Shown here piece after piece: positions 19,920 through 44,124 of a stretch of 64,000 nucleotides of DNA; position 1 is the stretch's first letter, and each line of letters begins with the position of its first letter. The stretch comes from Arenibacter sp. F20364. Lineage in GTDB: Bacteria > Bacteroidota > Bacteroidia > Flavobacteriales > Flavobacteriaceae. The stretch lies in assembly GCF_023015905.1 (NCBI RefSeq), contig NZ_JALKBD010000024.1:1-64000 (forward strand). Reading direction: 5' to 3'. Below the pieces are notes generated by a model. That model saw only the letters and a program-made list of their open reading frames with translations. It was not told the origin of the DNA and did no database searches. A program made the translations under genes and the position numbers.

Positions 19920-19937
19920 ATTTTAAAACAAAACATT

Positions 19938-20180: not shown

Positions 20181-20200
20181 TATATAAATAGTTGTAGCAA

Positions 20201-21703: not shown

Positions 21704-21717
21704 AAAATCGAAGAGAA

Positions 21718-24700
21718 ATGTTAAACAAAATATTATCAATTTCACTTCAAAATAGATTGCTCATTCTATTGGGAGCGGTTGCATTGAGCGTGTTGGGTAT
21801 TTACTATGCCAGGACAATGAACGTCGATGTATTCCCAGATCTTACGGCACCTACGGTAACCATTCTTACCGAAGCCCATGGAATGGAATCTGAAGAAGTC
21901 GAAAAATTAGTAACCTATCAACTGGAAACAGCCTTGAACGGCTCGCCAAATGTTCGAAGAATCCGTTCTTCATCGGCAGCAGGCATATCCATTGTTTGGG
22001 TAGAATTTGATTGGGGAACCGATATCTATCGAGCACGACAAATTGTGAGCGAACGGATCCCAATGGTAAGGGAAAATTTACCGGAAGGAATAGGTGCGCC
22101 GACTATGGCTCCTATTTCATCCATTATGGGCGAAATAATGCTACTGGGAGTTACGTCGGATAGCCTTTCGGCAATGGAATTACGAACTCTTTCCGATTGG
22201 ACCATTAGACCACGTATAAAAGCTATTGGCGGTATTGCAAATGTGGTGGTCATAGGTGGCGATTATAAGCAATACCAAGTATTTGCAAACCCTGAAAAGA
22301 TGAAGTATTACAACCTAAGTCTTTCAGAATTGGTCGAAAAGGTTAAAGAGGCCAATGCCAATGCGCCAGGTGGTGTTATCAACCAATATGGCAATCAATA
22401 CATTATCAAAGGGAGTGGTAGAGCTTATGCTTTGGAGGATTTACGGGAAGCAGTTTTAAAACAGGTCAATGGTCAAACCATCAAAATTAAGGATGTGGCC
22501 ACGGTTCAAATTGGAGCTGCCGATAAGATTGGGGATGGTTCATTGAATGCGAATCCGGCGGTGATCTTAACCATTTCAAAGCAACCGGATGTAAATACAT
22601 TGGAACTTACAGACCGTTTGGATGAAGCTATTGCTGATTTACAAGCAACTTTGCCTAAAGGTGTAAACATTAAAAGTCAAATCTTTAGACAATCCGATTT
22701 TATTGATGCCTCGATCAGCAATTTGAATCAAACCTTAATGGAAGGTGCATTCTTTGTAATGATTATCCTTTTCATCTTTTTAATGAATTGGAGAACAACG
22801 GTAATTTCATTGCTTGCCATTCCTATTTCCTTATTGGTGTCCATTATCATCTTAAAATGGCTGGGTTATACCATTAACACAATGAGTTTAGGTGGGATGG
22901 CAATCGCTATTGGCGCCTTGGTGGATGATGCTATTATTGATGTGGAAAATGTGTATAAGCGCCTGCGCGAAAATATCAGAAAACCAAAGTCTGATCGGCA
23001 ATCGACAATTACGGTCGTGCGGGACGCTTCCGTAGAAATACGAAGTTCTATTATTATCGCCACCTTGATTATCATTGTCTCATTTATACCGCTGTTCTTT
23101 TTGAGCGGGATGGAAGGTAGATTATTGCAACCGTTGGGCATTGCATTTGTAACATCTGTTCTAACCTCTTTGATCGTTGCTGTAACTGTAACCCCAATAT
23201 TGTGTTCCTATTTGTTGGATAACGAAAAGCTTTTGAACAAACAAGCAGAGGGCACACGGGTGGAACGTTGGTTACAGAAACATTATGGAAATATATTGGA
23301 ACGCGCCACAAAAATTCCAAAAGCTGTCATTGGTGTAACGGTCATTGCCTTCTTTGTAAGTCTTTTGGTTTTAACGCAATTGGGAAGAAGTTTTCTTCCA
23401 GAATTTAATGAAGGTTCTTTGGTAATTAGTGTGGTAGGACCACCGGGAATGTCTTTGGAAGAGAGCAACAAAACAGGAAAATTGATAGAGACGATATTAT
23501 TGGACCTGCCCGAAGTTGAAGTGGTTACCCGACGACAAGGACGAGCAGAACTGGATGAACACGCACAAGGTGTAAATGCTTCAGAAATTGATGTCCCATT
23601 TATTCTAAAAGACAAAACCAAGGAAGAATTTTTTGAAGAAGTCCGAACCAAATTAAGCATTGCCCCAGGGGTAAATATTACTTTGGGGCAACCCATCGCA
23701 CACCGGATAGATCATATGCTATCAGGTACACGTGCCAATATTGCGATCAAGATTTATGGCTTCGATCTACAACGTTTGTTTGAAGTAGGCAAGAGTGTAG
23801 AGCAGAACATCAAAGATATTGATGGCTTGGCGGATGTAGCGGTAGACCAACAAATAGAAGTTCCGCAGATACGCATCAAACCTAAACGTCAAATTTTGGC
23901 GGCCTATGGAATGACAGTTGGAAATTTGATGGAGCAGGTAGATATTGCTTTTGCCGGGGAAGAGGCAGGCGAAATTTATGAAGGTCAACAATATTTCGAT
24001 CTGGTTGTGCGCTACGAAAAACCATTTAGGAATGACATTGAGAACATCAACAATACATTAGTAAGTCTTCCTAATGGCGGATACACAATAATAGGTGAAT
24101 TGGCCACCGTTCAATCCGTGAGCAGTCCAAATACTATTAACCGAGAGGATGTGCAACGTAAAATTGTAGTAGCTGCCAATGTACAGGGCAGGGATTTACG
24201 AAGTGCCGTCAACGAAATAAAGGATGTTGTTGCCAGTAATGTAGCAATGCCTGAAGGTTATCGGGTGGAATATGGCGGACAGTTTGAAAGCGAGTCCAAA
24301 GCATCACAATTACTTATGTTCACTGCAATCATTGCAATAGCTATCATTTTCCTGCTATTGTATTATGAATTTAAAGATGTAAAACTGGCATTTGTAGTAT
24401 TGATCAATCTGCCTTTGGCTTTAATCGGTGGTATTTTGATAGTGTACTTCACTTCCGGAATTATCAGTATCGCAGTGACCATAGGTTTTATTAGCCTTTT
24501 CGGTATCGCAACCCGAAATGGAATCCTATTGGTTTCCAGATATGAGGATTTGAGAAAGGAAGGAATGAAAGGTTTTGAATTGATAAAAACAGGAGCTTTA
24601 GATCGCCTAAACCCGATCTTAATGACAGCCTTTACAACAGGCCTGGCCTTGATTCCCTTGGCCCTAAAAGGAGGCGAGCCTGGCAGTGAAATACAAAGCC

Positions 24701-24828
24701 CCATGGCGGTGGTTATTTTGGGGGGATTGTTATCTGCTACCATTTTAAATTTGGTCGTGATTCCTTGTGTTTATCAGTTGGTATTGAAAAGCCCGACCAG
24801 TGCTGCTGACGCCCCGGAATTAGTGTAA
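21718..24828 (+). CDS. CzcA/CusA-family heavy-metal RND pump
   Basis: A 1036-residue transporter of normal family length, with the RND start (LSISLQNRLLILLGAVAL) and a TM4 motif GALVDDAIIDVEN rather than the DFG-DGA form in the pump at 8762. This suggests a different metal range. Twelve hydrophobic helices and two large periplasmic loops are evident. It ends the operon; the convergent gap to 25095 (266 bp) shows no clear terminator. Monovalent versus divalent metal specificity cannot be decided by eye. Confidence 0.9.
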   Translation: MLNKILSISLQNRLLILLGAVALSVLGIYYARTMNVDVFPDLTAPTVTILTEAHGMESEEVEKLVTYQLETALNGSPNVRRIRSSSAAGISIVWVEFDWGTDIYRARQIVSERIPMVRENLPEGIGAPTMAPISSIMGEIMLLGVTSDSLSAMELRTLSDWTIRPRIKAIGGIANVVVIGGDYKQYQVFANPEKMKYYNLSLSELVEKVKEANANAPGGVINQYGNQYIIKGSGRAYALEDLREAVLKQVNGQTIKIKDVATVQIGAADKIGDGSLNANPAVILTISKQPDVNTLELTDRLDEAIADLQATLPKGVNIKSQIFRQSDFIDASISNLNQTLMEGAFFVMIILFIFLMNWRTTVISLLAIPISLLVSIIILKWLGYTINTMSLGGMAIAIGALVDDAIIDVENVYKRLRENIRKPKSDRQSTITVVRDASVEIRSSIIIATLIIIVSFIPLFFLSGMEGRLLQPLGIAFVTSVLTSLIVAVTVTPILCSYLLDNEKLLNKQAEGTRVERWLQKHYGNILERATKIPKAVIGVTVIAFFVSLLVLTQLGRSFLPEFNEGSLVISVVGPPGMSLEESNKTGKLIETILLDLPEVEVVTRRQGRAELDEHAQGVNASEIDVPFILKDKTKEEFFEEVRTKLSIAPGVNITLGQPIAHRIDHMLSGTRANIAIKIYGFDLQRLFEVGKSVEQNIKDIDGLADVAVDQQIEVPQIRIKPKRQILAAYGMTVGNLMEQVDIAFAGEEAGEIYEGQQYFDLVVRYEKPFRNDIENINNTLVSLPNGGYTIIGELATVQSVSSPNTINREDVQRKIVVAANVQGRDLRSAVNEIKDVVASNVAMPEGYRVEYGGQFESESKASQLLMFTAIIAIAIIFLLLYYEFKDVKLAFVVLINLPLALIGGILIVYFTSGIISIAVTIGFISLFGIATRNGILLVSRYEDLRKEGMKGFELIKTGALDRLNPILMTAFTTGLALIPLALKGGEPGSEIQSPMAVVILGGLLSATILNLVVIPCVYQLVLKSPTSAADAPELV

Positions 24829-25953: not shown

Positions 25954-27555
25954 CTATTTCAGCTTTAACGGCAGAAATTTTCGAACGTCCATATGGATCC
26001 GCTCAAAGTTTTCCGTTATCGCTCCATCTCTAATTCGAAATTTGGGTTTTGGAAGCCCCTTCTCAATATTGGGTTTTGGAAATCTTACTTTTTTATCCTT
26101 GCCATCCGCGAAGGCAATAAACTCCCCTTCCTTCAATCTAAAAAATTCCTCTGCCCGGATCTTGCTTACCTCCCTCTCTCCCTTTGTTATCCTGGTATCA
26201 AAATTCAACGTATTCTCCCCCTTACTAACACTCTTCGTCGGCCGCTTTACAAGTTCAAAAAAACGTTCGTAATATCTGGCGGTATCGGGATCATTCGCCT
26301 TTCCAAAAAACTGGTAGGATAGATTACTTAAAATGGCCCGGCTGGCTTTGTCCCCATACATCATATCGTTTTGAATTTTATCCTGGAGCACATAGATCGT
26401 GGCAACGTCATAACTTCTTAAAGTCGCTGGAATTCTATGCATATTAAGCAATCGTATCGTAGGCGCTTCTTCCATCAAAACGAAAGAACGGTGGCGGCCA
26501 CGTTTGCTCATTTGCTTGGTAATGGTATGGATTATTGTGGCTATCACTGGGGAATAGGCCGTTTCAAATTTAGGATTGTTCACTATGGAAACTACGGAGG
26601 GATGTTCGGGATTATTTATATCCAAAGGCACTTCATCGGCGGACAGTGCCATAAATATGCGTTGGGTACTGATCTTTTTAAGGGCATTGGCCAGCGTGCT
26701 CATTACCCCGGCTGTTTGACGTTCGGAATCCTTTCCTGAAATAAAGGCATCCGCCATAGCCTTGGATGTAAAGTCGGAACTTAAAAATTGTATCAGATTT
26801 TCCGTATCCAAATATTGGTAGGCAGCAATCAAGTGTGGTAGGGTACAATATTTCCCATGGCTGGTCTTCAGCTTCCAAATAAGGCCACCCAAAAGTCCTT
26901 CCACGGCATCGTTAAAGAACTTTGAGGAACCCATGGCAATTGTCTCGCGTTGCTCCAAAAGGTTCTCCAAAAGTACCCTGGAAACCTCATTAACGCTTTC
27001 TTCGTCCTCCATATAGCGAGGTGCGATAGGATTAACACGCTGATGAATATCGTCAAAGGAAATAATATGAAACGGTATTTCGGTATTGTTAAATAAGGGA
27101 TAGGCCATTTCTGTAATCTCAAAATCCTTGTAATCATGGATGACCCCTGCAAATTGATGCTCGTTGAAGTGTTTCAAAAAATTATAGACCACGCTTTCCG
27201 TTTTGCCACTTCCCGCCGATCCAATTATGGAAGCCCCTCGCCTAATGTTCTTCAGGACCAGGTTCCCGTTCAATAAATCGAACTTCACCTTATATCTTTT
27301 TGGTTCTATAGCAGTTCCAAAATTATAATTGAAGTATATAAATAATACCAAGTTTGTCACCTGAAAAGGTATTAACCAAAACAATACTATTTTGATAAAA
27401 ACTGGCCACCCAAATAAGGTTAGTAATGCGCCTCCTAGAACAAGCAACAATATAAAGTTGATAGCAAATGGATACTTGTTTTTCTTAAAGGACAGATATT
27501 GCAAAGCCATGGCCGCCACATAGATAAATACAGAAAGTAAAACCGTAATTTTCAT
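25954..27555 (-). CDS. TraG/VirD4-like type IV coupling protein
   Basis: Three N-terminal membrane helices (residues 1-75) are followed by an ATPase domain with Walker A GSAGSGKTE at 112-120 and a Walker B-type FVLMEEAP further on. Coupling proteins carry relaxase-DNA complexes to the conjugation channel. At 533 residues it is shorter than TraG of complete systems and resembles the MobC-type coupling proteins of mobilisable Bacteroidota elements. It follows the relaxase-like gene with a 40 bp gap. Confidence 0.85.
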   Translation of the reverse strand: MKITVLLSVFIYVAAMALQYLSFKKNKYPFAINFILLLVLGGALLTLFGWPVFIKIVLFWLIPFQVTNLVLFIYFNYNFGTAIEPKRYKVKFDLLNGNLVLKNIRRGASIIGSAGSGKTESVVYNFLKHFNEHQFAGVIHDYKDFEITEMAYPLFNNTEIPFHIISFDDIHQRVNPIAPRYMEDEESVNEVSRVLLENLLEQRETIAMGSSKFFNDAVEGLLGGLIWKLKTSHGKYCTLPHLIAAYQYLDTENLIQFLSSDFTSKAMADAFISGKDSERQTAGVMSTLANALKKISTQRIFMALSADEVPLDINNPEHPSVVSIVNNPKFETAYSPVIATIIHTITKQMSKRGRHRSFVLMEEAPTIRLLNMHRIPATLRSYDVATIYVLQDKIQNDMMYGDKASRAILSNLSYQFFGKANDPDTARYYERFFELVKRPTKSVSKGENTLNFDTRITKGEREVSKIRAEEFFRLKEGEFIAFADGKDKKVRFPKPNIEKGLPKPKFRIRDGAITENFERIHMDVRKFLPLKLK

Positions 27556-27595: not shown

Positions 27596-28621
27596 TTAAA
27601 TAGCTATGGAACTTGAGGATTTGGCCACGTCTATTACCTTTTTAAATTGTTTAATGGCCTGTAGGGCTGCTTCCACCTTATTGGTGGGAATATTAAGTTT
27701 TGGAATATGTACCCCGGCAGTACCCATAAGTTTAAATGCAGCGCTACGTTCATTGGTCGGAAGTCCCAAGAGATGGGCGAAATAAATTTTAGGGTCATGG
27801 ATATAAGTCTTACGGGCTTGGTACGACTCCACAAAATTTCGTTTGTATTTAAATAGGGTATCAAACCTCTTTTCCGCATTGTCATAAAACTGATCTCTCC
27901 TAAACCCACGTTTGACCATTTTGCCGTTAAGTTTGGACTCTGACGCCATGTATTTGCTCCCTGGGGAAAGACTAAATCTATTGGAAACATCCTTTCTACT
28001 GACAATGATATGGACATGGGTCTGTGGTCCTGGCTTTTTCATCCCCTGAACAACGACCTTGCCATCGATACGATGTGGGATTTGAGCATTGAGCATGGCG
28101 ATGTCATTTTGCATAGTTTTGGCATTGCCGGCAACCTCCCCCCGTTCCACTTTACGGATTTCATTTTCAAGTTTTACGATCTGTGCTCTGTACACCTGAT
28201 TTTCTTTCACCTGCCTATCAAACCCTTTAAAAGTGCGTTCATATTCCAGCTTCGCATAGTATTTGATACTGTCTACAGATACAGGATTATCACGATGGAA
28301 AGAAGCCGCATAGTCCTTCATGACCTCTCTCACATATTCCTTTAAAAGTTTTGGGTCATTGTTGATATGATTAAGTTCCCGCTGACTTGGGTTAATGGTG
28401 ATGGAATAAAACTTGGGTTCCTGCTTTTTCAGTTTGGCGGTATTGCCGTCGATCTCCTTGACCACCTGTTCCGGGGGGATACGGTCATGGTTTTGATCAA
28501 AGAACTGTTCTTGCTGATCCAATCCTTTTCCCTCGTTCTCCTTTTCCAAATAGTCGACAAAATCCGAAGAGCTCTGGGAAAAGGTCGTGTCCAAATGTTG
28601 TTTGGTGATACTGATATACAT
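27596..28621 (-). CDS. Relaxase-like mobilisation protein (DUF5712 type)
   Basis: A 341-residue protein with a FYSITINPSQ strand near 71-80, a helical hairpin at 130-160, and a QTHVHIIVSRKD motif at 200-211 where His202 and His204 make the metal-binding HxH pair of relaxases. Tyr122/Tyr123 are possible nucleophiles but cannot be confirmed by eye. Its place between a BfmA-like gene and the coupling protein gene supports a nicking role at oriT. The DUF5712 assignment is from remembered family features. Confidence 0.7.
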   Translation of the reverse strand: MYISITKQHLDTTFSQSSSDFVDYLEKENEGKGLDQQEQFFDQNHDRIPPEQVVKEIDGNTAKLKKQEPKFYSITINPSQRELNHINNDPKLLKEYVREVMKDYAASFHRDNPVSVDSIKYYAKLEYERTFKGFDRQVKENQVYRAQIVKLENEIRKVERGEVAGNAKTMQNDIAMLNAQIPHRIDGKVVVQGMKKPGPQTHVHIIVSRKDVSNRFSLSPGSKYMASESKLNGKMVKRGFRRDQFYDNAEKRFDTLFKYKRNFVESYQARKTYIHDPKIYFAHLLGLPTNERSAAFKLMGTAGVHIPKLNIPTNKVEAALQAIKQFKKVIDVAKSSSSIAI

Positions 28622-33447: not shown

Positions 33448-34122
33448 CTAAAGGGGTTCCCCATAATTTTTATCGGTAGAAATTTTTAGGTAATCAACTT
33501 TTGGTTTTTTGTTGGAACTTCCAACAAATCCAGTTTCCTCTTTTAGTTCCTTCGCCTTGAGCATCCAATTTCTTGCTGTGGCTTGCCAGTCTTCAATTGC
33601 AGATATACCGCCGACCTTCCATCCTACTCCCTGATAATGGTTATAAAATTTAATACCCTCTGTAGGCGACCAATTGCTTTTTTTAAAAAATTCAATAACA
33701 ACAAGTTCATTTTTTGGTCGGCTCTCTCTAGAGAGTTTATTTTCTGTTTTATTTTGTTTATTAATGTTTATATATGATACCACCGCCGGTCCAGCACTAG
33801 TTTCATGCTGGTCCACCACTTGTTCATCAGTTGTCCCAAAAATGGGCATCATGATACGGCTCCCCTTAAACCGATTATGAGAGGGCAGATAAACGATATA
33901 TTTCCAATCGTTCAAATTGGTCATACAACGATGGTACGTAGTCCTAGATCCTATTTTGGAAAAAGACATGGTTTCCTCCCTGTCCACTAAAAAACTTTTG
34001 GGAAATCGATTCATATTCCAATATTGAAATAAGGCCATATACAAACTTACATGGGAGGGATTGAGCCTCGAATCTTTTGAAAATTGCTGAAATACCGCAT
34101 TGAGGTGTTTTATATAGTTCAT
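33448..34122 (-). CDS. Probable replication initiation or transcription protein of the mobile element
   Basis: A 224-residue protein with an N-terminal winged-helix-like start (LNPSHVSLYMALFQYWN, SKIGSRTTYHRCM) and a basic C-terminal region containing IEDWQATARNWMLKAKEL. This layout is seen in small replication proteins paired with DnaC-like ATPases in Bacteroidota elements. It overlaps the upstream HTH gene by 4 bp (ATGA). Exact family not recognised. Confidence 0.5.
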   Translation of the reverse strand: MNYIKHLNAVFQQFSKDSRLNPSHVSLYMALFQYWNMNRFPKSFLVDREETMSFSKIGSRTTYHRCMTNLNDWKYIVYLPSHNRFKGSRIMMPIFGTTDEQVVDQHETSAGPAVVSYININKQNKTENKLSRESRPKNELVVIEFFKKSNWSPTEGIKFYNHYQGVGWKVGGISAIEDWQATARNWMLKAKELKEETGFVGSSNKKPKVDYLKISTDKNYGEPL

Positions 34123-34409
34123 TTTTTTTGATTTGAGTGCTTAACAAGGTTATCCATAAGAATTTTTTCAATTTGCTCTGCATCGTAAAATATTAGTCCC
34201 CCTATTTTTGTAAAGGATAAAATGCCGCTGCGGCGCAGACTCCGCAAGGTTCCAGAACTAATGTTGAGCATGTTCATAACCTGGGTGCTCTTGAGCCATT
34301 CCTTTTTAATGACCTTGGCCTGGTTTTCGTTCAAAAGTTCCTTGATTTCCCCCAGAAGTTCGGTTTTAAATTCCCAGAGGTCCTCCGTAGTGATAATAGC
34401 CGTTGGCAT
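34119..34409 (-). CDS. Small helix-turn-helix protein, excisionase-like
   Basis: A 96-residue protein (ATG at 34409) with a long helix (LWEFKTELLGEIKELL) followed by a MerR/excisionase-like HTH: EWLKSTQVMNMLNISSGTLR, then SGILSFTKIGGLIFYDAEQI. Such proteins bend DNA at excision sites or control operons. It heads the unit that includes the replication-type, DnaC-like and exonuclease-fold genes, next to rteC, and is likely controlled from the dyad at 34499-34635. Confidence 0.6.
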   Translation of the reverse strand: MPTAIITTEDLWEFKTELLGEIKELLNENQAKVIKKEWLKSTQVMNMLNISSGTLRSLRRSGILSFTKIGGLIFYDAEQIEKILMDNLVKHSNQKK

Positions 34410-34498: not shown

Positions 34499-34635
34499 GT
34501 CATAGTCAGTTGACATAAATTATTATTGCATTAAATTCGAAGAAATTGATAGGAAAATACCCTGAATTCAAGACAAATTTTGGCATAATTTGATTTATTC
34601 CGTTTGAAAATGCTAAACAGTCAATTGACTATGAC
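34499..34635 (-). promoter_or_regulatory. 16-bp inverted repeat between rteC and the HTH gene, likely operator
   Basis: GTCATAGTCAGTTGAC (34499-34514) and GTCAATTGACTATGAC (34620-34635) are inverted copies with 15 of 16 matching, separated by 105 bp. Each arm contains a near-perfect GTCA-ATTGAC palindrome. The arm at 34499 lies about 90 bp upstream of the HTH gene, just above a -7-like CATTTTTG box. In CTnDOT, RteC binds inverted half-sites upstream of the excision operon, so this is a good candidate for the local RteC target. Confidence 0.5.
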
Positions 34636-34645: not shown

Positions 34646-35461
34646 TTAATCGTCCAGATCAGTAATCCAATACTGTAGGGAATTTTTTAGTTTATCCAGA
34701 AACTTGGTAGGGTGGGTTCGGTTTCTTATTCGGACCGAGGTATGGTGATAATCCCCCAGATCCACCCCTGTAACCTGTTCTAGGAATAGCATTACAGATT
34801 TTAAACTGGCGTTGCCATGGTTTATAATACCGCTATAAAATAAAGCGAACCCCAGCTCAGTAAGGGCAATCTTTGATCCGGTCCAGTTGATTTTCGGAAT
34901 AGGTATTTTGGGAAAAGGCATAGAAGTACTCGATTTTTGTTGAAGAAATTGCAAGAATCCTTGGTAACCCAATATCTGGGCAACCAATACATCATGGGAA
35001 GCACTAAATTCCGAATCAAAACTATGTCCATTTCGACCCGTACGGACAAATAAATTTCTATTCTTTCTTAAAAAATACTGTGAATCCAATGCACTGTTTT
35101 CCAGTTCAAGATATAACACCATATCTTTATGGCTAGCCAAAAAAGCATTTACTTCCCGGATCTTTCTTCCTATAATTTCGTTGTTCATACCATAAGCTAT
35201 ATTAGGGAAGTCCAACTCAAATGTAAGTTGATGGGAATATTGCAAAAGGAGACCAAAAAGCAAGGGCTTGTCCTTTTTAAAGAATCGAATTTCTGAAGTT
35301 TCATCAGGGAAACCATGGACTATCACTGCTTTACGATAATCTTCCAATATCTTTTGGCAAAAAGAAATGGCCTTATCAAATGAGGCAATTGGGTTGCTGA
35401 ACGATTGTTCAATCTGGAGCAGTTCCGATTCAATTTCACTTAGTGACCTTATCCAATCCAT
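34646..35461 (-). CDS. rteC: RteC-domain regulator of element excision
   Basis: A 271-residue protein matching the RteC family: an N-terminal helical half with IRFFKKDKPLLFGLLLQYSH, and a C-terminal half with WTGSKIALTELGFALFYSG, INHGNASLKSVMLFLEQVTG and RNRTHPTKFLDKLKNSL. In CTnDOT RteC activates the excision genes. Its upstream region has the paired 13-bp motif (35535-35573) and a hairpin (35480-35503). The gene is separated from the HTH unit by the dyad at 34499-34635. Confidence 0.85.
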   Translation of the reverse strand: MDWIRSLSEIESELLQIEQSFSNPIASFDKAISFCQKILEDYRKAVIVHGFPDETSEIRFFKKDKPLLFGLLLQYSHQLTFELDFPNIAYGMNNEIIGRKIREVNAFLASHKDMVLYLELENSALDSQYFLRKNRNLFVRTGRNGHSFDSEFSASHDVLVAQILGYQGFLQFLQQKSSTSMPFPKIPIPKINWTGSKIALTELGFALFYSGIINHGNASLKSVMLFLEQVTGVDLGDYHHTSVRIRNRTHPTKFLDKLKNSLQYWITDLDD

Positions 35462-35503: not shown

Positions 35504-35534
35504 AAAAAAGTACGTCGAAAAAAGTCGGAGCCAC

Positions 35535-35573
35535 CGTCATTTATAAACGAAGACGGTGCATTTATAAATGACG
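35535..35573 (-). promoter_or_regulatory. Paired copies of the 13-bp motif upstream of rteC
   Basis: CGTCATTTATAAA (35535-35547) and TTTATAAATGACG (35561-35573) are exact 13-bp inverted copies separated by 13 bp, about 75-112 bp upstream of rteC. The same 13-mer lies at 38219-38231 and 43506-43518, upstream of other minus-strand units. The rest of the gap 35462-35773 shows no gene. Confidence 0.5.
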
Positions 35574-35773
35574 GGCTAATAACTAGAAATTTTCTGAGAT
35601 CATGAAAATTTAAACTATAATTATTCTAAACACCTAGTTCAGATTAAGGTCAAGGTAATAAAATAGAGAACTTTTATTGATATCAAGTAAATTGGGCTTT
35701 TAAGTTGAACGCTCTTATGAATTCCAATAAATTATAATAACCAATACAGCATCCAAAAGGGAGAAGAAATTGT

Positions 35774-37933
35774 CTAGTACTTCATATTAGACTTGGCAAA
35801 ACTAAAAATTCGTGCATTCAGGTCTATGGTAGCGTCATAACCTTGTGGATTCTCATGACCAGAATGATAATCGATATCCATCAATATCGGAGTTTCAGCC
35901 TGATTGTATTTTTGAAGCTTGGCAATATATTTACCGCTATCCCATAAGGGGATCCTGTCATCGTTATTGCTTGGCATAATCAAGGTAGCGGGATAATTTT
36001 TTTTGGACCTCAAGTTTAAGTAAGGGTCCATTTGTACTAGCCCGAGACATTCCAAGCTATCTTTTACTGTACCATACTCTATATAACTGGTACTGCTGGA
36101 CATCGTGGAGGATTCGAGTCCAAACGGGTGCATTCTAGGCACTTCGGCAATAAAGGAAGAATATAATTCAGGACATTCATTGACAGCCATACCTGCCGTA
36201 ATACCACCAGCACTATTAGTATAAAGAGAGACCAATCCTTTTCGGGTGTACCCCTTTTCAATTAAAGATTTCGAGCAAGCGATAAGATCTTTCCATGAAT
36301 TATATTTTAAGGCTTTCATTCCTTGAATATGCCATTCTTCTCCCTTTTCCCCTCCACCGCGAACATGCGGGAAGGCAAGAATACCCCCTTGACTTACCCA
36401 ATCCAGATAAGTGGGCGAAAAGAATGGGCTCATACTTTCCCCATAAGCGCCGTATACATATATAAAAACTTCGTTATTGGAATCAAGTTTCATATCTTTT
36501 TCATAGACCAAGGAAAGAGGTACTTCTACCCCATCATGGGAAGTGACCATAATCTGTTTGGAGGCTATATTGCGGAATTCAGGAAAGTTGGCAGAATCCA
36601 AAAGTCCTTCGTTGATAAATTTTCCCTGTGGACCTATATCATATCGAACGTAATTTGAAGTCCAACCATCCATACCAATGCCAATTTTGTTGTGAGTAAC
36701 CGATTCCCCTAAAAATGAAGCATAGCCCGGTGCAAAGGGCGGTTTTAGTTGAATAGTATTTTGTAAACTGTCAATTCGAAAAATAGATATCTCAACCCCA
36801 TATTTTTCCCGAATAAAATATATGTTGTCTTTAGTAATCTCAAATTGGGTAATGGGATCTTCACGACTACCGGTAGCAAGAATTAATGGTTTATCAAATT
36901 TGGGATGTTCTATATCTACTTGACAAAGTTGATTTCCGTTTGGAGTAGCTCTACGATATATAAAATGTTGACCTCTAATTTCGCCCTGATTATAATAAAT
37001 CTTATCTATAGTCTTAAAGAACGGCTTCCACTGGGGATTTCCATTCATTACATCACTTAATTTGGCAATAAAACTATCGTAAAACACGCCTGATTTAGCA
37101 GAATATCCTATTATGTAGGAATCCCAACTAGAGCCTATCTTTACCTTGGGGAAATAATCAGAGGCAATTCCCAAGGAACTATCATCACCAAAAATAGGAG
37201 TTCGTTTTTGAGGATTATCCCCAAAAAAATGGATAGCTGAAAAAGATTTCTTTTTGTACCTGGCGTCCGACTGTTCAACAAAAGGAAAGTAAAGATATAT
37301 TATCCCTGAGTTATCAGGCAACCACTGTATTCCTCCAAAATCCGGATTAATTTGTGTTATTTGGTCCTTTAAAATTTTTTTAGTTTCCAAATCATAAAAG
37401 ATAATGGTAGAGGTAAATTCCTCCCTTGGATCCAACCCAATAGCTATCTTACTTCCGTCAAAAGAGGGCTCTAAATAGCTTATATTTTTACTCTTGATAC
37501 CATAGGTACTTGGATCAAAAAGTACAGTTTCCTGATTGGACAGTTTTTCCTTATAATATAGCAGGTCAATATCCTTAGTTTCGTCATAGCGCAAATAGAA
37601 GTAATTCCCTTTTTCATCTATACGTATATTACTGATATTACCTCTGCTCCTACCTTCTAATTCATGGAAACGCTTTTGAAACTGCCTAAAAAGTTGATTG
37701 TTTAAAAAATAAGTTTCGGCCAAAGAATCCTGTGCTTTCAACCAATTTTGGACTTTGGGGTCTTTCAAATTCGTTAAATTATGGTAACTATCCACCACTG
37801 TCATTCCAAAAAGCACATTGGATATAGGATCTTCGGCAATTTCTGGATAAGTCCAATAATCCGCTTCCTGCCTATTGTTACAGGAAGTAATAAGGCAAAA
37901 AAGACCAGAATATAATAAGATGTACCTTATCAT
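35774..37933 (-). CDS. S9 prolyl-oligopeptidase-family lipoprotein
   Basis: A 719-residue protein with a lipobox (LITSCNNRQ) near residue 18 and the family's N-terminal DSYHNLTNLKDPKVQNWLK segment, followed by a seven-bladed propeller and an alpha/beta-hydrolase domain. Ser574 lies in TNSAGG; the usual first Gly of GGSAGG is Asn. Asp in NNDDRIPLWDSG and His in DYHSGHENPQG complete the triad. It is likely anchored in the cell envelope facing the periplasm and cleaves after proline in small peptides. It is encoded 73 bp after the precursor-peptide gene and could mature, degrade or recycle the exported peptide. Confidence 0.8.
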   Translation of the reverse strand: MIRYILLYSGLFCLITSCNNRQEADYWTYPEIAEDPISNVLFGMTVVDSYHNLTNLKDPKVQNWLKAQDSLAETYFLNNQLFRQFQKRFHELEGRSRGNISNIRIDEKGNYFYLRYDETKDIDLLYYKEKLSNQETVLFDPSTYGIKSKNISYLEPSFDGSKIAIGLDPREEFTSTIIFYDLETKKILKDQITQINPDFGGIQWLPDNSGIIYLYFPFVEQSDARYKKKSFSAIHFFGDNPQKRTPIFGDDSSLGIASDYFPKVKIGSSWDSYIIGYSAKSGVFYDSFIAKLSDVMNGNPQWKPFFKTIDKIYYNQGEIRGQHFIYRRATPNGNQLCQVDIEHPKFDKPLILATGSREDPITQFEITKDNIYFIREKYGVEISIFRIDSLQNTIQLKPPFAPGYASFLGESVTHNKIGIGMDGWTSNYVRYDIGPQGKFINEGLLDSANFPEFRNIASKQIMVTSHDGVEVPLSLVYEKDMKLDSNNEVFIYVYGAYGESMSPFFSPTYLDWVSQGGILAFPHVRGGGEKGEEWHIQGMKALKYNSWKDLIACSKSLIEKGYTRKGLVSLYTNSAGGITAGMAVNECPELYSSFIAEVPRMHPFGLESSTMSSSTSYIEYGTVKDSLECLGLVQMDPYLNLRSKKNYPATLIMPSNNDDRIPLWDSGKYIAKLQKYNQAETPILMDIDYHSGHENPQGYDATIDLNARIFSFAKSNMKY

Positions 37934-38006
37934 TGTTTTTTAATTTTAAAACGTAGAAATCTAAGACCAGCCGAAGCGATCGCTGAATTTATAGTAACTT
38001 AAAGTA

Positions 38007-38132
38007 TTAGTCTCTGTGTCCCCTTTTCGGCCTTTTAATTTTATCAGTATCGATAGGTCCATCTCCACCGCCCTTAATTTTCGTCAAGTTCTTTAATGCT
38101 CTTTTTTTGAAGTCTTCCATTTTTTTTCTCAT
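38007..38132 (-). CDS. 41-residue double-glycine-leader precursor peptide
   Basis: An ATG at 38132 (plus an in-frame Met at residue 5) opens a 41-residue frame. Residues 1-22 form a basic amphipathic leader ending LKNLTKIKGG, the double-glycine signal cut by C39 peptidases. The remaining 19 residues, GDGPIDTDKIKRPKRGHRD, are a small, basic, Pro-containing core without Cys. It lies between the exporter/sensor operon and the S9 peptidase gene, which strongly supports its role as the exported substrate. No modification enzymes are nearby, so the core may be unmodified. Leader cleavage could fall one residue later because three glycines occur. Confidence 0.7.
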   Translation of the reverse strand: MRKKMEDFKKRALKNLTKIKGGGDGPIDTDKIKRPKRGHRD

Positions 38133-38218
38133 GATTTCCGGTTTTAATAGTTAATAAATTAAAGGTTTATCCCAAGATAGCCCGTGTTGTAAAAAACTAC
38201 AAATAATATATCCTACCA

Positions 38219-38231
38219 TTTATAAATGACG
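38219..38231 (-). promoter_or_regulatory. 13-bp motif upstream of the precursor-peptide gene
   Basis: TTTATAAATGACG lies 87-99 bp upstream of the precursor ATG and overlaps the last codons of the TPR-AraC gene, in the same orientation as the copies upstream of rteC (distal copy) and of the exporter operon. It may be a binding site of the TPR-AraC protein. Confidence 0.45.
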
Positions 38232-39956
38232 TCCAATTTGTCTTTGCTTAAGCTCCTTCAATACCTTGGAAGGATACACTCCGGTCTTGGAATAAAATGC
38301 TCTGGAAAAGGATTCCCCTGTTTTAAAACCAAAGGTGTCCGCTAACCCCTGATAGTTGTATTTTAACAATTCAGGCTCACTGGAAAGCCTATCAATTGCC
38401 GTTGTGATTTTTAAATCCTTCAAGTAGTTCGGGAAACTCATTTCTTTGTAATGGTTAATAACAGTGGACAAATAGGAGGTGTTCGTATCCATTTCCTGTG
38501 CCAATTGAGCCATATCCAATTCTTTGCTCAAATAGTGGTCAGACTTTTCAAAAGCCTCCAATTTCATCAAAATATCATCTCTTATTTCTTTAGGTACAGA
38601 TGTTGGATATTCCTCGACTTTGGGTGAAGGAGGTTTAGGCCGCTTAGATCCTGCCAATAATTCCTTTACTTTGGTTCTAGTCTTTTGGGCCTTAATATAT
38701 AAGTATACACCTATCAGGATTGCAAGGCCTGCCATTGACCCTAATACAAATATCCAAATGCCTTTTGCCTTAAGTTGTTCCTCTGCTTTGCTTTTTTGAC
38801 GCTTCAGATAAGGAATATCATAGGCAACAGTGGCCTGTTCTATAATTCCTTTTTGTTCCGATGTCATCAAGCTATCAAAAAATATAAGTTTTTCAATGGC
38901 ATCGATTTCACGTTTTTGATTCTCCTCCAAACTGTAATACATAACCAGCTGTTGATAAACCTCTTTAATATTGTCAAAGGGTTCCCGGGACGCGCCCACG
39001 ATGGAATCGATTTGTTGAAAATAAGTTATGGCCTGTTTATTGTTACCTGAGTATTGAGCTATCTTGGCCAAATAATAAAGTTTGATCGCCTTGCTTTTTC
39101 CTTCCAATTGAAAGACATATTTTAGAAGAGTATCCCTCGCTATTTGATAGTCCCCTTCATAATAATCCAATTGAGCGCCCACCAGAACAAAATCACGGTA
39201 TTCCATTTTGTCATTATTGGACAATGCCTTATCAATGCCGGCTTTGTAATATTGCCGTGAGGAGTCCAATTGTGAAAGCCTTAGGTGAGCCAATGCAAGA
39301 TTGTACATCAAGATCATATAGTCATTATAATACGTGTTTTCAAAATCCTTTTCCTTTTTCAGCACCTTTAATGACCTGGTGTAAATATCTGCTGCAGCAT
39401 GAGGCTGGCCATTAAGGTTGCGAATTGCAGCAATGGCCATGGAACATGTAAGTTGATCGTTAAGATTGTTTTTCTCTACCGCTAGATTATAAGCGGTAAT
39501 GTAATTCTGCAGGGAAAGTTGATAATCTCCTTTGTCATAGTAAATAATAGCCTTGAGTATGTAACCGAAAGTGGGATAGTCGAGATGGTCACTTTGAGCG
39601 GTAACCAAAATAATTGAATCGGAATAGGAAATTGCTAATTCCGGTTCTTCAATAATAGTTCGGTAATAATAACCACTGGCAAGCTCCATTACGTTGGATT
39701 CGCTTTTAGCTTTATTGATATGGACCTCGGTTAGATATCTTAGCTTTTGTAAATCACCATTTTCATAGGCTTCATCCTCCAAGTCCATAATGCTTTGATA
39801 GGTCGTATCCGATAAGTAATCCGTAGTCAATAAAAGAGTATCCTTGAGAAAGTTGGGTTCTTGAGCAAAGCAGACGCTCAATGTAGCAAACAACAAAACT
39901 AATATTGCCAAAGGGCTAAATCTATAGACTCTATATTTGATTACGGTCCTAGTCAT
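38220..39956 (-). CDS. Membrane sensor-regulator: periplasmic TPR domain, TM helix, cytoplasmic AraC HTH
   Basis: Residues 1-31 are a signal/anchor (LAILVLLFATLSVCFAQ). Residues ~55-335 consist of TPR-like helix pairs (SYSDSIILVTAQ, GDYQLSLQNYITAYNLAV, DSSRQYYKAGI). A membrane helix lies at about 398-420 (IWIFVLGSMAGLAILIGVYL). The C-terminal ~100 residues are an AraC-type double HTH (LDMAQLAQEMDTNTSYLSTV, then YQGLADTFGFKTGESFSRAF). TPRs bind peptides in several signalling families, so it may sense the exported peptide outside and act on DNA inside. It overlaps the HlyD-like gene by 1 bp (TAATG). Confidence 0.8.
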   Translation of the reverse strand: MTRTVIKYRVYRFSPLAILVLLFATLSVCFAQEPNFLKDTLLLTTDYLSDTTYQSIMDLEDEAYENGDLQKLRYLTEVHINKAKSESNVMELASGYYYRTIIEEPELAISYSDSIILVTAQSDHLDYPTFGYILKAIIYYDKGDYQLSLQNYITAYNLAVEKNNLNDQLTCSMAIAAIRNLNGQPHAAADIYTRSLKVLKKEKDFENTYYNDYMILMYNLALAHLRLSQLDSSRQYYKAGIDKALSNNDKMEYRDFVLVGAQLDYYEGDYQIARDTLLKYVFQLEGKSKAIKLYYLAKIAQYSGNNKQAITYFQQIDSIVGASREPFDNIKEVYQQLVMYYSLEENQKREIDAIEKLIFFDSLMTSEQKGIIEQATVAYDIPYLKRQKSKAEEQLKAKGIWIFVLGSMAGLAILIGVYLYIKAQKTRTKVKELLAGSKRPKPPSPKVEEYPTSVPKEIRDDILMKLEAFEKSDHYLSKELDMAQLAQEMDTNTSYLSTVINHYKEMSFPNYLKDLKITTAIDRLSSEPELLKYNYQGLADTFGFKTGESFSRAFYSKTGVYPSKVLKELKQRQIGRHL

Positions 39957-41251
39957 TATTGTGTATTTGACCAGAGATTTCTAAACTGATAAAAAATACG
40001 CTGTAGTAACGTTACCTCCTCTAAAATGATTTCGGCGCTGCCGATCATTTCCTGTTTAAATTCCAAAGTTCTACCGTATGAAGTCACTAAGTCCTTGATC
40101 TTTACATATACCACATAACCTTCATTTTCGCCCGTTCTGGGGACTTCGGAAATTGTTTTTACTTCTCCCTTAAGGGACCCCCATTCGCGATAGGGATAGT
40201 TTTCCAATTTAATGATGACACGCTGACCCGGCCTTATCTTTCCTGAGTTTAGGATGGGTACCTGGCACCTTCCTAATAACCCTTGGTTTCTTAATGGAAC
40301 CACCGTAAAAACTACCTGATTTTCCTTAACATTTTGATGTTTTCCCCAAACATCGAAAAAAGAGATCCGTCCGGCAATAGGGCTCGTTAATAAATATTGT
40401 TCCTCCCACTCGGTCAATGCAGATATGAGTTCTTCTTGCTCCAATTCTAAAATGGAACCATGCGTATTCTCGTTTTTTAGTCGAGAATTATCGAACTGCA
40501 TTTGAGTGTTCCGAATACTCGTTTCCACCATGCGTAATTGATTTAGTTCCTGTTCTAGATTCCCATATTCACGTTGGACTTTCAAATATTCCTTTTCCTT
40601 TTTTTCTAAATCACCAAGTGATATGACTCCCTTTTTTAAAAGCTCTTGATATCGATCAAAATCAATTTGGGCTATTTCAAGGTCACGTTGAAGAACAATA
40701 ATTTCTTCCTTTTTGTTTTTAATGGCAGTGGATTGTCCAAGAAGTTGTTGTTTAAGTTCAGTTTCTTTCAACGCTTCGTTGTCCAGGGATCGATAAAATA
40801 TAAGATTGCGATAGGCATTTAGAAATCTATTATAAAAAGGTCGAATCTGCCCGCTAAGCCTCAATTGGTTTGGGAATTGATATGATAAGGTCTGCGGTTT
40901 TAATACCAAAGGATATCCAGATGTCAGTTTTTGTTTTAGCATGACCATATCCTTGGCTTCCCCAGTGTTTTCCAACACTCCTAAAATGTCACCTTTGGAA
41001 ACTGTATCCCCTGGATTATAATTTACCTCGATTAATTTACCAGTCTGTTTTGCCCTTAAATGTACAGGTGGATCGGATGTGGTCAATACCACCGATGCTT
41101 TAATGCTCTCGTTAAAGGAGAAAAAAGAGGCAAACACTACAACAAGGACAAAAAAAGAAATCACCAATACTATTCCCCATTTAAGCATCCAATTGGATTC
41201 CCTACTTATATAGGCCTCTTTCTCATATATGTAAATACCCTGGTCTTCCAT
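39956..41251 (-). CDS. HlyD-type membrane-fusion protein of the peptide exporter
   Basis: A 431-residue protein with one N-terminal membrane helix (LKWGIVLVISFFVLVVVFAS), a lipoyl half (AKQTGKLIEVNYNPGDTVSK), a long coiled coil (residues ~130-260) and a C-terminal beta barrel. It connects the ABC exporter to the outer membrane. It begins 5 bp after the exporter stop codon, so translation is coupled. Confidence 0.85.
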   Translation of the reverse strand: MEDQGIYIYEKEAYISRESNWMLKWGIVLVISFFVLVVVFASFFSFNESIKASVVLTTSDPPVHLRAKQTGKLIEVNYNPGDTVSKGDILGVLENTGEAKDMVMLKQKLTSGYPLVLKPQTLSYQFPNQLRLSGQIRPFYNRFLNAYRNLIFYRSLDNEALKETELKQQLLGQSTAIKNKKEEIIVLQRDLEIAQIDFDRYQELLKKGVISLGDLEKKEKEYLKVQREYGNLEQELNQLRMVETSIRNTQMQFDNSRLKNENTHGSILELEQEELISALTEWEEQYLLTSPIAGRISFFDVWGKHQNVKENQVVFTVVPLRNQGLLGRCQVPILNSGKIRPGQRVIIKLENYPYREWGSLKGEVKTISEVPRTGENEGYVVYVKIKDLVTSYGRTLEFKQEMIGSAEIILEEVTLLQRIFYQFRNLWSNTQ

Positions 41252-41256
41252 GTGTT

Positions 41257-43443
41257 CTATAATTGATTAAGGATTAGTTGATGATAAAAACCATTTAGTT
41301 CTACCAATTCCTTATGGCTGCCCTTTTCCACAATCTTTCCCTTGTCCATGACCAATATCTGATCTGCATTGCGCACCGTGGACAACCTATGGGCAACTAA
41401 GATTACCGTTTTGTCGACATAAAAAGACTTTAGGTTTTCAGAAATGACCTTCTCATTTTTGGCATCAAGGGCACTGGTCGCCTCATCAAAAAAGAGATAG
41501 TCTGGATTTTTATAGATGGCCCTTGCAATTAGCAGGCGCTGTTTTTCACCACCACTAAGGAGATTGCCATGTTCGCCTATCAAGGTGTCCAAGCCCAAGG
41601 GAAGATTCTCCACTAATTCGCTAAGATTGGCCATGACGACCACCTCGAACAATCTGTTCCGATCCGTAGGTCGGTTTGCCCTCGATTCCGTAATATTTCG
41701 TCCCAAAGTATCATTGAACAAGGAACTATCTTGAAGAACGGCACCACAATGTTCTCTCCATTTTTTCGTGTTCATAAATCTCAGGTTATCCTTTCCTATA
41801 TTTATTTTACCCTTTACAGGTTCATATAATTTGAGCAATAATTTTAGAAGAGTTGTCTTTCCAGAACCACTAGAACCAACAATAGCCGTAATTTTCCCTT
41901 TGGGAATGGTTAGCGTAATATTGTCCAACACCTTATGTGAAGTACTTTCTCCATAAACAAAATCGAGATTTGTAATGCCAATGTGTCCTGGTTCAATGAT
42001 TTCGGTCTTGGCAATTGGCAAAGACCCATTTTTTTCAGAATGGACTTCGGACAAACGCTTTAGGGAAAGGGTTGCACGTTGTAATCCTACTATAAAATCC
42101 AAAGTATTAGAAATTGGAATGGAAAGACTGCCTACAATAAATTGTATGGCCAACATAGTTCCGAGTGTAATTTCGCCATATACCACCGCTTTTGCGGACC
42201 AAAAAATTATGAAAATGCTGGTCATTTCATTAAGAAAGGAACCTCCTTTGAGCTGGATCTGATCTAGTTTCAAGATATCTATCTTTAACCTGTACAACCT
42301 TCCTTGGACTTTCTTCCATTCCATTTTGCGCCGACGTTCGGAACCATTCAGCCTTATATCACGAATAGCTGTTATCAGTTGGATCAAAAGCGACTGTTCC
42401 GAGCGGTTCAGATTGAATAGCTTATGGTCAAGTAGAGCTTTACGTTTTAGAAACAATACGGTCCAACCCATAAAGAGCAAAGTGCCCAACATAAAAATTA
42501 CCAAAATGTCAATATTGAAGTAACCCAGTACAATTCCAAAGACCAAGATGCTGAACATATCAAACACAATGGAAAGGGAACGACCGCCCAAAAATTCGTC
42601 AATGCGATGGTGGTCATAGATTCGTTGCATAAAATCTCCCGTGGTCTTAGAATCAAAATAGGCAAAGGGCATAAGCAGCAATTTGTCCAAAAAATCGGAA
42701 ATCATGGAAATGTTGATTTGAGTGGACATATGTAGTAACAGCCAGTCTCTAATAATCTCGGAGGCCAATCGTGTCAAAAAAAGAAAAATCTGGGCGATTA
42801 CAACAAGGTGGATAAAACCAATATTTTCAAAATCAATTCCATAATCCACAAGGCTCTGTGTCAAGAATGGAAGAAGCAATTGAATTGTGGTGGCAAGTAA
42901 AAGTCCAAGGCACAATTGGCCAATATAAACCTTAAATGGCATTAAATATTTAATCAGGAAGCCTAACCCCGTGTGAGAGGTATCCTCTCCTGGGATGTTG
43001 GTAAAACTGTGGTTGGGTTCCACTAGTAAAAGAATGCCTTTTTCATTGTCCGGGGATGCCCATTTCTGAATAAATTCCTTATGACCATATTTTGCTATCC
43101 CAATTGCGGGATCTGAAACATATACATACCCCTTAGTTGCCTTGTAGACCACGAGAAAATGATTGTTCTCCCAATGTGCAATAGCTGGCAATGGAACGTC
43201 ATTCACCAATTCCTCGATATCAGATCGTATTCCTATGGCGTCGATCCCGATGGTTTCCAAAGCCTCTGAAAGTCCTGCTAGCGATGCACCTCCCCTTCTA
43301 AGGTTGGAAATTTGTCTTAGATACTCCAAATTATAATCCTTTCCGTAATGTTTGGTGATGATTTTTAGACATGCGGGACCACAATCCATTTGATCGAGCT
43401 GGCGGTAATTCGGAAAATGGCTGGTACCAAACTTCATCTGCAT
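41257..43443 (-). CDS. Peptidase-containing ABC exporter (C39 bacteriocin-type, PCAT)
   Basis: A 728-residue protein. The C39 peptidase domain (residues ~10-140) has the catalytic triad Cys21 in QLDQMDCGPAC, His95 in HWENNHFLVV and Asp111 in YVSDPAIG. A six-helix membrane domain (~170-440) and an ATPase domain follow: Walker A GSSGSGKTT at about 521, signature LSGGEKQR at about 627, Walker B LFFDEATSALD and the H-loop VAHRLSTVRNAD. It cleaves double-glycine leaders and exports the mature peptide. The matching substrate is the gene at 38007. It is first in the operon with the HlyD-like and TPR-AraC genes. Confidence 0.9.
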   Translation of the reverse strand: MQMKFGTSHFPNYRQLDQMDCGPACLKIITKHYGKDYNLEYLRQISNLRRGGASLAGLSEALETIGIDAIGIRSDIEELVNDVPLPAIAHWENNHFLVVYKATKGYVYVSDPAIGIAKYGHKEFIQKWASPDNEKGILLLVEPNHSFTNIPGEDTSHTGLGFLIKYLMPFKVYIGQLCLGLLLATTIQLLLPFLTQSLVDYGIDFENIGFIHLVVIAQIFLFLTRLASEIIRDWLLLHMSTQINISMISDFLDKLLLMPFAYFDSKTTGDFMQRIYDHHRIDEFLGGRSLSIVFDMFSILVFGIVLGYFNIDILVIFMLGTLLFMGWTVLFLKRKALLDHKLFNLNRSEQSLLIQLITAIRDIRLNGSERRRKMEWKKVQGRLYRLKIDILKLDQIQLKGGSFLNEMTSIFIIFWSAKAVVYGEITLGTMLAIQFIVGSLSIPISNTLDFIVGLQRATLSLKRLSEVHSEKNGSLPIAKTEIIEPGHIGITNLDFVYGESTSHKVLDNITLTIPKGKITAIVGSSGSGKTTLLKLLLKLYEPVKGKINIGKDNLRFMNTKKWREHCGAVLQDSSLFNDTLGRNITESRANRPTDRNRLFEVVVMANLSELVENLPLGLDTLIGEHGNLLSGGEKQRLLIARAIYKNPDYLFFDEATSALDAKNEKVISENLKSFYVDKTVILVAHRLSTVRNADQILVMDKGKIVEKGSHKELVELNGFYHQLILNQL

Positions 43444-43505
43444 TCCAATTACAATATCTCAAAATAACCCAAAAATTCAGATGAACCTTTAGACTTTGAA
43501 GATGG

Positions 43506-43518
43506 TTTATAAATGACG
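43506..43518 (-). promoter_or_regulatory. 13-bp motif upstream of the exporter operon
   Basis: An exact TTTATAAATGACG copy lies 63-75 bp upstream of the exporter ATG. Upstream of it are two ATCGTAC direct repeats (43553-43559 and 43569-43575, 16 bp apart), another possible AraC-type site. The gap 43444-44006 holds no clear gene. Confidence 0.45.
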
Positions 43519-43591
43519 ACCGATTAGTCTTGAATAACTTTTACAGATAAAAATCGTACGAACTACTTATCGTACTCAAAAACCTATGCAA

Positions 43592-44036: not shown

Positions 44037-44049
44037 GTCTTTGTTACCG

Positions 44050-44124
44050 TGGGCCCTACTGGGTTCGAACCAGTGACCCCCTGCTTGTAAGGCAGGTGCT
44101 CTGAACCAGCTGAGCTAAGAGCCC
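44050..44124 (-). tRNA. tRNA-Val (anticodon TAC)
   Basis: A 75-base cloverleaf: acceptor GGGCTCT pairs with AGGGCCC, the D arm contains AGCTCAGCTGGTTCAGAGC, the anticodon stem CTGCC/GGCAG... encloses CTTACAA (TAC, valine), and the T arm has GGTTCGAACC. No CCA is encoded. It marks the start of probable core chromosome on its right. Its 3' end faces the mobile region on the left, the usual side for tRNA-targeting integrases. Confidence 0.9.

Follow-up and report, generated by a model that had tools for sequence, protein, structure and literature searches.

What joins a peptide exporter, its precursor peptide and the conjugation regulator gene rteC in Arenibacter sp. F20364? The locus lies in the first 64,000 nucleotides of contig NZ_JALKBD010000024.1 (assembly GCF_023015905.1). 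This stretch is the window analysed here, and positions refer to it unless another contig or locus is named (G, C and L numbers are our handles for genomes, contigs and loci). The first-pass annotation of the window had noticed one 13-bp motif before these three genes, and proposed a secreted-peptide circuit, with a TPR-AraC sensor in the same cassette, that also controls a neighbouring mobile element. The motif turned out to be half of a longer palindrome that holds its place across related loci, inside an integrative and conjugative element (ICE). On sequence comparison, an autoinducing peptide circuit probably switches on rteC, and hence excision and transfer of the ICE.

The 13-mer has four exact copies in the cassette, at 35535-35547 (-), 35561-35573 (+), 38219-38231 (+) and 43506-43518 (+), and the annotation had given both these and the spacings of 63 bp to the exporter start and 87 bp to the peptide start correctly. 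Its remark that the three outer copies share an orientation stands in part. The stronger CGTC half is upstream in all three, but the agreement is partly trivial because CATTTATAAATG is self-complementary. Chance, which the annotation had thought unlikely, does not account for the exact recurrence (against a background of one copy per 5.74 Mb, four copies in 8 kb have a Poisson probability of ~1.6e-13). The idea would have suffered if the 13-mer were common at unrelated places. The whole genome (5,735,699 bases, 181 contigs) contains only five exact copies, four of them in the cassette region, and the genus-wide scan below gave no sign of such spread either. The fifth copy, C65:117129, is inside a LacI-type coding sequence, where it encodes part of KFINDGRK, and is unrelated; we considered it as the far end of the ICE and rejected it as a coding coincidence. 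Looser matching was no better than shuffled or reversed controls, so only the exact motif and the longer site are informative. With two mismatches the window alone has 7 matches, which is not significant (8 of 100 shuffles reach 7), and a loose pattern gave 67 matches in the genome vs 73 in the reversed control, indicating no excess.

In the intergenic regions of homologous Arenibacter loci, the 13-mer forms one half of a palindrome of ~30 bp, whose best form is ATTGGTCGTCATTTATAAATGACGACCAAT. The copies at 35535 and 35561 make up one double site, and the copy at 38219 overlaps the TPR-AraC stop codon. A 26-nt repeat (D8) was also considered as a duplicated sensor C-terminus, a reading rejected since the operator accounts for it. 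The 15-mer CRTTTATAAATGAMG matched 26 times in 18 Arenibacter genomes, 25 times in the module and once outside it (G016 C16), and the reversed pattern did not match; 10 of the 11 genomes with matches have the module. At 12 bits or more, a position weight matrix (PWM) built from 27 Arenibacter sites found four sites in the 119.5 kb holding the ICE of A. echinorum and three in 118 kb of G004, all of them in the module; those of A. echinorum nearly duplicate sites used for training. Table 1 lists the parts.

Table 1. Features of the peptide cassette and its host element in the window
Feature	Position	Strand	Evidence and remarks
tRNA-Val, 3' end = ICE attachment site	44049..44124	-	19-mer 44049-44067 repeated at far ICE end
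Operator 1, 30-bp palindromic window	43495..43524	-	25.8 bits; before exporter/sensor operon, centre -67 from ABC start
Peptidase-containing ABC exporter (C39 + ABC membrane + ABC ATPase)	41257..43443	-	PF03412 6.9e-35, PF00664, PF00005
HlyD-type exporter adaptor	39956..41251	-	PF13437 1.2e-12
Membrane TPR-AraC sensor-regulator (predicted)	38220..39956	-	TPR_12 4.5e-10, HTH_18 3.7e-8
Operator 2	38208..38237	-	26.4 bits; over sensor stop codon, centre 90 bp upstream of peptide start
GG-leader precursor peptide, 41 aa	38007..38132	-	MRKKMEDFKKRALKNLTKIKGG / GDGPIDTDKIKRPKRGHRD
S9 peptidase, prolyl-oligopeptidase family	35774..37933	-	PF00326 2.7e-34, PF02897 1.8e-19; lipoprotein-like N-terminus by eye
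Operator 3a, distal of rteC pair	35550..35579	-	23.7 bits
Operator 3b, proximal of rteC pair	35529..35558	-	25.5 bits; centre 21 bp from 3a, 83 bp from rteC start
rteC	34646..35461	-	PF09357 9e-46, 156.7 bits vs cut-off 25.3; excision/transfer regulator by family
Second palindrome, arm 1	34620..34633	-	GTCAATTGACTATG on + strand; arms co-vary in relatives
Second palindrome, arm 2, upstream of HTH_17 gene	34501..34514	-	CATAGTCAGTTGAC on + strand
HTH_17 (excisionase-like) gene, next downstream of rteC	34119..34400	-	PF12728 2.6e-8
MobB-family relaxase	27596..28621	-	NF041495 5.6e-115, over cut-off
Coupling protein, VirD4/TraG type	25954..27555	-	PF10412 3.2e-17, PF02534 8.8e-12

A sensor search of 149 related genomes gave a match at E 1e-40 in 19. 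Within Arenibacter there are 12 homologous loci in 10 of 18 genomes, with sensor identities of 63-100%. The annotation had advised looking for the motif in related elements, and in these 12 loci the palindrome was found again in three settings: ahead of the exporter operon (degenerate in some loci; in four exporter-less loci it is ahead of the sensor gene instead), over the sensor stop codon and ahead of the peptide gene, and as two copies before rteC. We followed its positions in 14 loci, the 12 from Arenibacter, of which G000, G002 and G005 C22 are nearly identical and not independent, and those of G300 and G332 from other genera. All 14 have two TTATAA centres, 20-21 bp from each other and 75-160 bp before rteC, and in 13 of them both sites score at least 10 bits (the exception is the second site of G332, at -2.7). 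Each of the ten loci with a peptide gene has its peptide site, of 22.9-33.5 bits, centred between -81 and -93. The best exporter-site match is centred at -65 to -67 in nine of the ten exporter-bearing loci; the exporter site reaches at least 17 bits in six of the ten and 10.9 in G008. In an alignment of eight Arenibacter rteC upstream regions, two TTTATAAA blocks are invariant; a T-rich stretch, conserved in part, and TGA.ATTT come after them, a layout that fits sites upstream of a putative promoter. At two of the exporter-less loci, G010 and G005 C28, we read a tyrosine-integrase-like gene directly before the sensor, and the rteC of G010 (C44:54698-55519) has an in-frame TAA near its start.

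The module also occurs in other genera. Sensor homologues at 1e-36 were found in 50 of 299 genomes of the family (the F20364 genome and G010 included), and we examined the surroundings of the best of these in 15 stretches. G300 (sensor 52%, exporter 63%, S9 56% and rteC 38% identical) and G332 (49%, 56%, 53% and 32%) have the complete order exporter-HlyD-sensor-peptide-S9-rteC together with its sites. Two further genera, with sensors 30-33% identical, have part of the module order or sites in common. G186 and G292 have the sensor, peptide and S9 genes close to rteC and differently oriented; a single strong site follows the sensor in each (23.4 bits in G186, 19.5 in G292), and the G292 stretch gave no exporter match. 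A fifth genome, G220, is described below, and the remaining ten of the 15 stretches matched in the sensor and not in the cassette. Nine more distant loci (L046-L054) have an exporter homologue in five stretches and rteC in none. Close sensors are rare, as an order-wide search at E 1e-68 matched only 2 of 395 genomes (F20364 and G332). At locus L163 (G153 C1:1052000-1071900), seven tandem TPR-AraC matches lie within ~12 kb.

The exporter has an N-terminal C39 peptidase, an ABC membrane domain and an ATPase (Pfam), the architecture of a peptidase-containing ABC transporter (PCAT). Its gene is 5 bases from the HlyD gene, and the HlyD stop overlaps the sensor start by one base, so the sensor sits within the operon that it would control. 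As a companion to the PCAT, a GG-leader peptide gene with predicted cleavage stands between sensor and S9 in eight of the 12 Arenibacter loci and in G300, G332, G186, G292 and G220; wherever an intact S9 gene follows the sensor, such a gene is in between (13 of 13 loci). The peptides after GG are QDGPIDRDKVLRKGRRQG (G300), GSSVIDRDKVRRPKPGKK (G332), GDGPIDRDKIRTSERR (G186), DLGPIDKRKLNDKKKR (G292) and FADKGPIRRDKLKRPKHGF (G220). Homologues in other genera mostly have a GPID.DK-like core, which is retained at sensor identities of ~30%. Six peptides tried had no match in Pfam, and the sole NCBIfam match was ComC to the G292 peptide, at E 0.026 and below the cut-off. The best PDB match of the S9 protein is prolyl endopeptidase. 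Its Ser, Asp and His, which we take to be the catalytic triad, are kept in all 12 aligned sequences, the window's included. At what is presumably the S1-pocket Trp position for proline, the aligned residue is Ser in nine and Asn in three of the 12, making cleavage after proline uncertain. Because the catalytic residues are kept and this Trp is not, both trimming and degradation of the peptide are possible. The idea that S9 cuts a nonapeptide at two prolines, appealing for the Arenibacter peptides, was dropped. The second proline is absent in G300, G186 and G292 and the first in G332, so with the S1 tryptophan also missing we do not claim such a product.

In Pfam the sensor has a TPR domain and HTH_18, whose score of 34.0 bits against a cut-off of 33.6 places it in AraC/XylS; by eye, it starts with a signal-like segment and has a hydrophobic stretch near residues 401-421, between TPR and HTH_18. 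With this predicted topology, the sensor could detect a peptide on the outer side of the inner membrane, and import would not be needed. The structure model has a mean pLDDT of 61.2, with residues 320-403 and 422-511 below 50, parts on which we base nothing; in the TPR part (residues 51-320) block values are 62-92, at least 64 in 51-280 and 63 at 281-290. This part aligns with RapI (Z 20.7, root-mean-square deviation (rmsd) 4.5 over 265 residues), NprR (Z 19.1, rmsd 4.6, 269 residues) and Rap of pLS20 (Z 18.2), and with many other TPR proteins. The modelled fold thus allows peptide binding without proving it. In PHROGs only the sensor had matches, weak ones to regulators, and RteC had none; the RteC model is poor (mean pLDDT 53.9).

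The annotation had placed the cassette beside a neighbouring element, which is wrong. The cassette is inside an ICE of ~118 kb integrated in tRNA-Val, between rteC and the attachment site. A. echinorum DSM 23522 has an exporter, adaptor and sensor with 98.6-100% identity to those of the window. In A. echinorum (G002), the 19-mer of the tRNA-Val 3' end occurs at C5:394561 and C5:512287, an interval of 117.7 kb, and a tyrosine integrase lies beside the left copy, so that both an integrase and direct repeats are present. F20364 itself has the far repeat on contig C102, together with the same integrase. Since the tRNA-Val repeats bound the interval, the cassette forms the tRNA-proximal end of the ICE. 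The interior of the A. echinorum ICE has TraG P-loop, TraM and DUF4138 genes, and its relaxase and coupling-protein genes match those of the window. Relaxase, coupling-protein and mating-pair genes are thus represented, as expected of an ICE. Three tRNA-Val 19-mers in one contig of G005 (C22:403244, 416592 and 551084) suggest that a second element, of 13 kb, lies in tandem with the ICE.

We propose the following circuit. The C39 ABC/HlyD exporter would cut and export the GG-leader peptide, which the S9 peptidase may trim or degrade outside the cytoplasm. As the presumed ligand, the peptide would act on the membrane TPR-AraC protein at its periplasmic TPR domain; in the cytoplasm, the AraC domains of this protein would bind the palindrome as a dimer. 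The bound regulator would then activate, rather than repress, its own exporter/sensor operon, the peptide/peptidase operon and rteC, the last by way of a pair of adjacent sites spaced two helical turns apart. In turn, RteC would switch on excision and transfer, by analogy with its family. The circuit that the annotation suggested thus gains support from the position-conserved motif, the module in other genera and the sites by TPR-AraC genes in genomes without RteC.

Two proteins are candidates for binding the palindrome. RteC itself might bind the TTTATAAATGACG palindromes, autoregulating and controlling the peptide cassette, with the TPR-AraC protein regulating something else. The rteC gene has two palindrome sites, and a close rteC and the sensor gene occur together in all 12 Arenibacter loci, so the two candidates are indistinguishable within the genus. 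Outside the genus, sites of at least 13 bits are found in 11 of 35 TPR-AraC loci vs none of 20 distant RteC loci (best 12.6) and one of 35 reversed controls, a comparison weakened by a threshold chosen after seeing the scores and by somewhat shorter RteC loci. The scores at sensor loci differ from those at RteC loci and reversed controls (Mann-Whitney p 3e-4 and 2e-4; 0.0014 and 0.0015 with the four module loci excluded). Among 14 loci examined for position, three of which score only 10.1-10.7 bits, the site in 11 lies at most 230 bp before the sensor start or at most 40 bp from its stop; the exceptions are L148 (-363 from a late-called start), L019 and L136. Five genomes (G154, G056, G274, G362 and G299) without an RteC match at E 0.001 have a site of at least 13 bits beside a sensor gene. 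RteC was matched in seven of the 14 genomes searched, and of the 20 RteC matches of those genomes one has a 13-bit site nearby, the module copy L187. Because the sites lie by TPR-AraC genes in RteC-less genomes and, at 13 bits or more, by none of the 20 distant rteC genes, the membrane TPR-AraC protein is the likely binder, and we regard binding by RteC as very unlikely. A better candidate operator for RteC may be a different inverted-repeat pair, between rteC and the HTH_17 gene (34501-34633, 119 bp start to start), which could instead be a structured RNA/DNA element. On the coding strand, its rteC-side arm is GTCAATTGAC in nine of the 12 Arenibacter loci, GCCAATTGGC in G010 and G005 C28, and GCCAGTTGGC in G004. 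In some loci (e.g. G012, G001 and G008), the palindrome of the far arm is imperfect. The arms of G300 are GCCCAGTGGGC and GCCCACTGGGC, and the pair was not seen in G332 or G186.

If the TPR-AraC protein binds the palindrome, it may still sense another input, such as envelope stress or another ligand, or act as a repressor, with the peptide as an output. The sensor-only loci (four of the 12) and the frequency of TPR-AraC genes in the family, with ten stretches lacking the cassette, speak for this; the constant GG-leader peptide gene between sensor and intact S9 gene speaks against it, as do the whole sets that accompany the closest sensors outside the genus. We consider such a role unlikely. 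It is quite unlikely that the peptide is a bacteriocin or toxin whose production the TPR-AraC protein controls, with S9 as immunity protein and rteC co-regulated so that transfer and killing go together. C39 exporters and GG leaders serve antimicrobial and signalling peptides alike (PMC6363468). The exporter is also nearest to bacteriocin exporters in NCBIfam, below the cut-off. Bacteriocins, however, change fast, unlike the retained GPID.DK core. We noticed no obvious additional immunity gene in the list of open reading frames (ORFs) of the window, the PWM sites of the ICE are confined to the circuit and rteC, and the sensor-only loci keep their sites. The repeats might also be att-like recombination sites or boundaries of a mobile cassette rather than operators, given that the three direct copies border two gene blocks, that one of them runs over the 3' end of a gene and that the core is symmetric. 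This att or transposon-end role was dropped as scarcely credible: the ICE ends are the tRNA-Val repeats, the sites hold fixed distances to start codons, similar sites stand by TPR-AraC genes outside such cassettes, and no recombinase gene was noticed in the window's cassette from the ORF list. These readings overlap, and the likelihoods we attach to them are not shares of one whole.

Several observations weigh against the peptide circuit. Four of the 12 Arenibacter loci (L035, L036, L037 and L040, in G010, G005 C28, G012 and G013 C4) keep the sensor, sites and rteC and lack an intact S9 gene as well as any recognised gene for peptide or exporter. Because such loci exist, the sensor may act without this peptide, or answer the peptide of neighbours; two of these genomes, G005 and G013, also hold the full module. 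In G004 (5.1 bits, with the best match elsewhere), G001 (0.6) and G300 (3.9), the exporter site does not rise above background. G186 and G292 have no rteC pair of at least 9 bits, and G220 has the cassette and neither rteC nor a site of at least 11 bits in its 20 kb. As many as 24 of the 35 TPR-AraC loci are without a 13-bit site, among them L163, whose stretch has no palindrome of at least 11 bits, and one of the 11 matching loci, L019, has its site 1.26 kb from the gene, probably by chance. Reversed sequence yields single PWM hits of up to 19.0 bits, so a lone weak hit elsewhere would mean little. The best structural match to the TPR domain is the eukaryotic protein LGN (Z 23.0, rmsd 4.1, 280 residues). 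As a separate observation, L054 has a CATTTATAAATG palindrome at 10112-10141 (13.4 bits), centred 46 bp before a 27%-identity TPR-AraC gene. This genome has no RteC match, which suggests that operators of this type extend beyond the ICE cassette.

In Firmicutes, peptides are known to control conjugation. Rap-Phr receptors are TPR proteins whose peptide is imported, and PrgX is a soluble Firmicutes regulator without a membrane span or AraC domain. The proposed circuit would work like Rap-Phr control of ICEBs1 and is not a member of that family. A secreted peptide controls excision or conjugation in the Rap-Phr systems of ICEBs1 and pLS20, and conjugation of pCF10 is controlled by cCF10 through the RRNPP regulator PrgX (PMC9765709). 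Rap receptors are cytoplasmic, whereas the TPR domain here is predicted outside the inner membrane, with a hydrophobic helix leading to the AraC domain. The dedicated C39 ABC exporter and the target rteC are further differences from Rap-Phr, and the predicted membrane-spanning AraC-type regulator is a difference from PrgX. Compared with the RRNPP(A) family, the sensor has a TPR receptor domain (TPR_12 and a predicted superhelix, for which LGN outranks RapI and NprR), and the element has a gene for a peptide that would be its ligand; the signal-like segment and hydrophobic stretch, seen by eye, do not suit a soluble cytoplasmic receptor. The streptococcal double-glycine peptide/PCAT systems ComC and Rtg share the GG leader, the C39 ABC exporter and the proposed autoinduction logic. 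They have no peptide family in common with the module and a different sensor, and the host here is Gram-negative.

In CTnDOT, RteC activates excision-operon genes (PMC10865816). It is driven there by tetracycline and rteA/rteB, whereas here a membrane one-component TPR-AraC protein and the palindrome appear to take that place. The HTH_17 gene lies directly downstream of rteC, behind the conserved palindrome pair. The annotation knew of no described Bacteroidota example, and in the open literature, which leaves most subscription journals outside, we likewise recognised none for a peptide-controlled ICE or a TPR-AraC/peptide cassette, and no paper joining Arenibacter and conjugative elements. 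The nearest printed hint found is a report on putative Bacteroidales precursors of ribosomally synthesized and post-translationally modified peptides, which describes adjoining TPR-like and signalling genes as possibly pheromone-related and suggests that some of these clusters have a part in signalling (PMC10352776).

We lean slightly towards a broader reading, in which the ICE would encode its own peptide quorum sensing, with a new GPID.DK-core peptide family, an extracytoplasmic TPR-AraC receptor, ATTTATAAAT palindromes, rteC as the driven gene and density-dependent transfer. If true, this would be Gram-negative peptide control of conjugation assembled from unrelated parts, and rteC would gain an input other than tetracycline. 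Sensor-only ICEs would then listen without making the signal. The receptor family, DNA site and peptide family named here are each directly testable. ICEs of Bacteroidota spread resistance genes.

The ICE also carries genes apart from the circuit. A set resembling a cyclic-oligonucleotide-based antiphage signalling system (CBASS) was found by PADLOC at 757-1788 of the window and at L122:11681-16024 in A. echinorum, with models for an oligonucleotide cyclase (4.4e-112), E1-E2 (E1 part), JAB and a SAVED-HNH effector. From the translations, a large heavy-metal-efflux-like cargo at 8762-24828 includes two RND pumps, adaptors and a P-type ATPase. Between the two, a 1521-aa protein (2985-7550) had no match in PADLOC; its start resembles what we take to be a tyrosinase-like copper protein.

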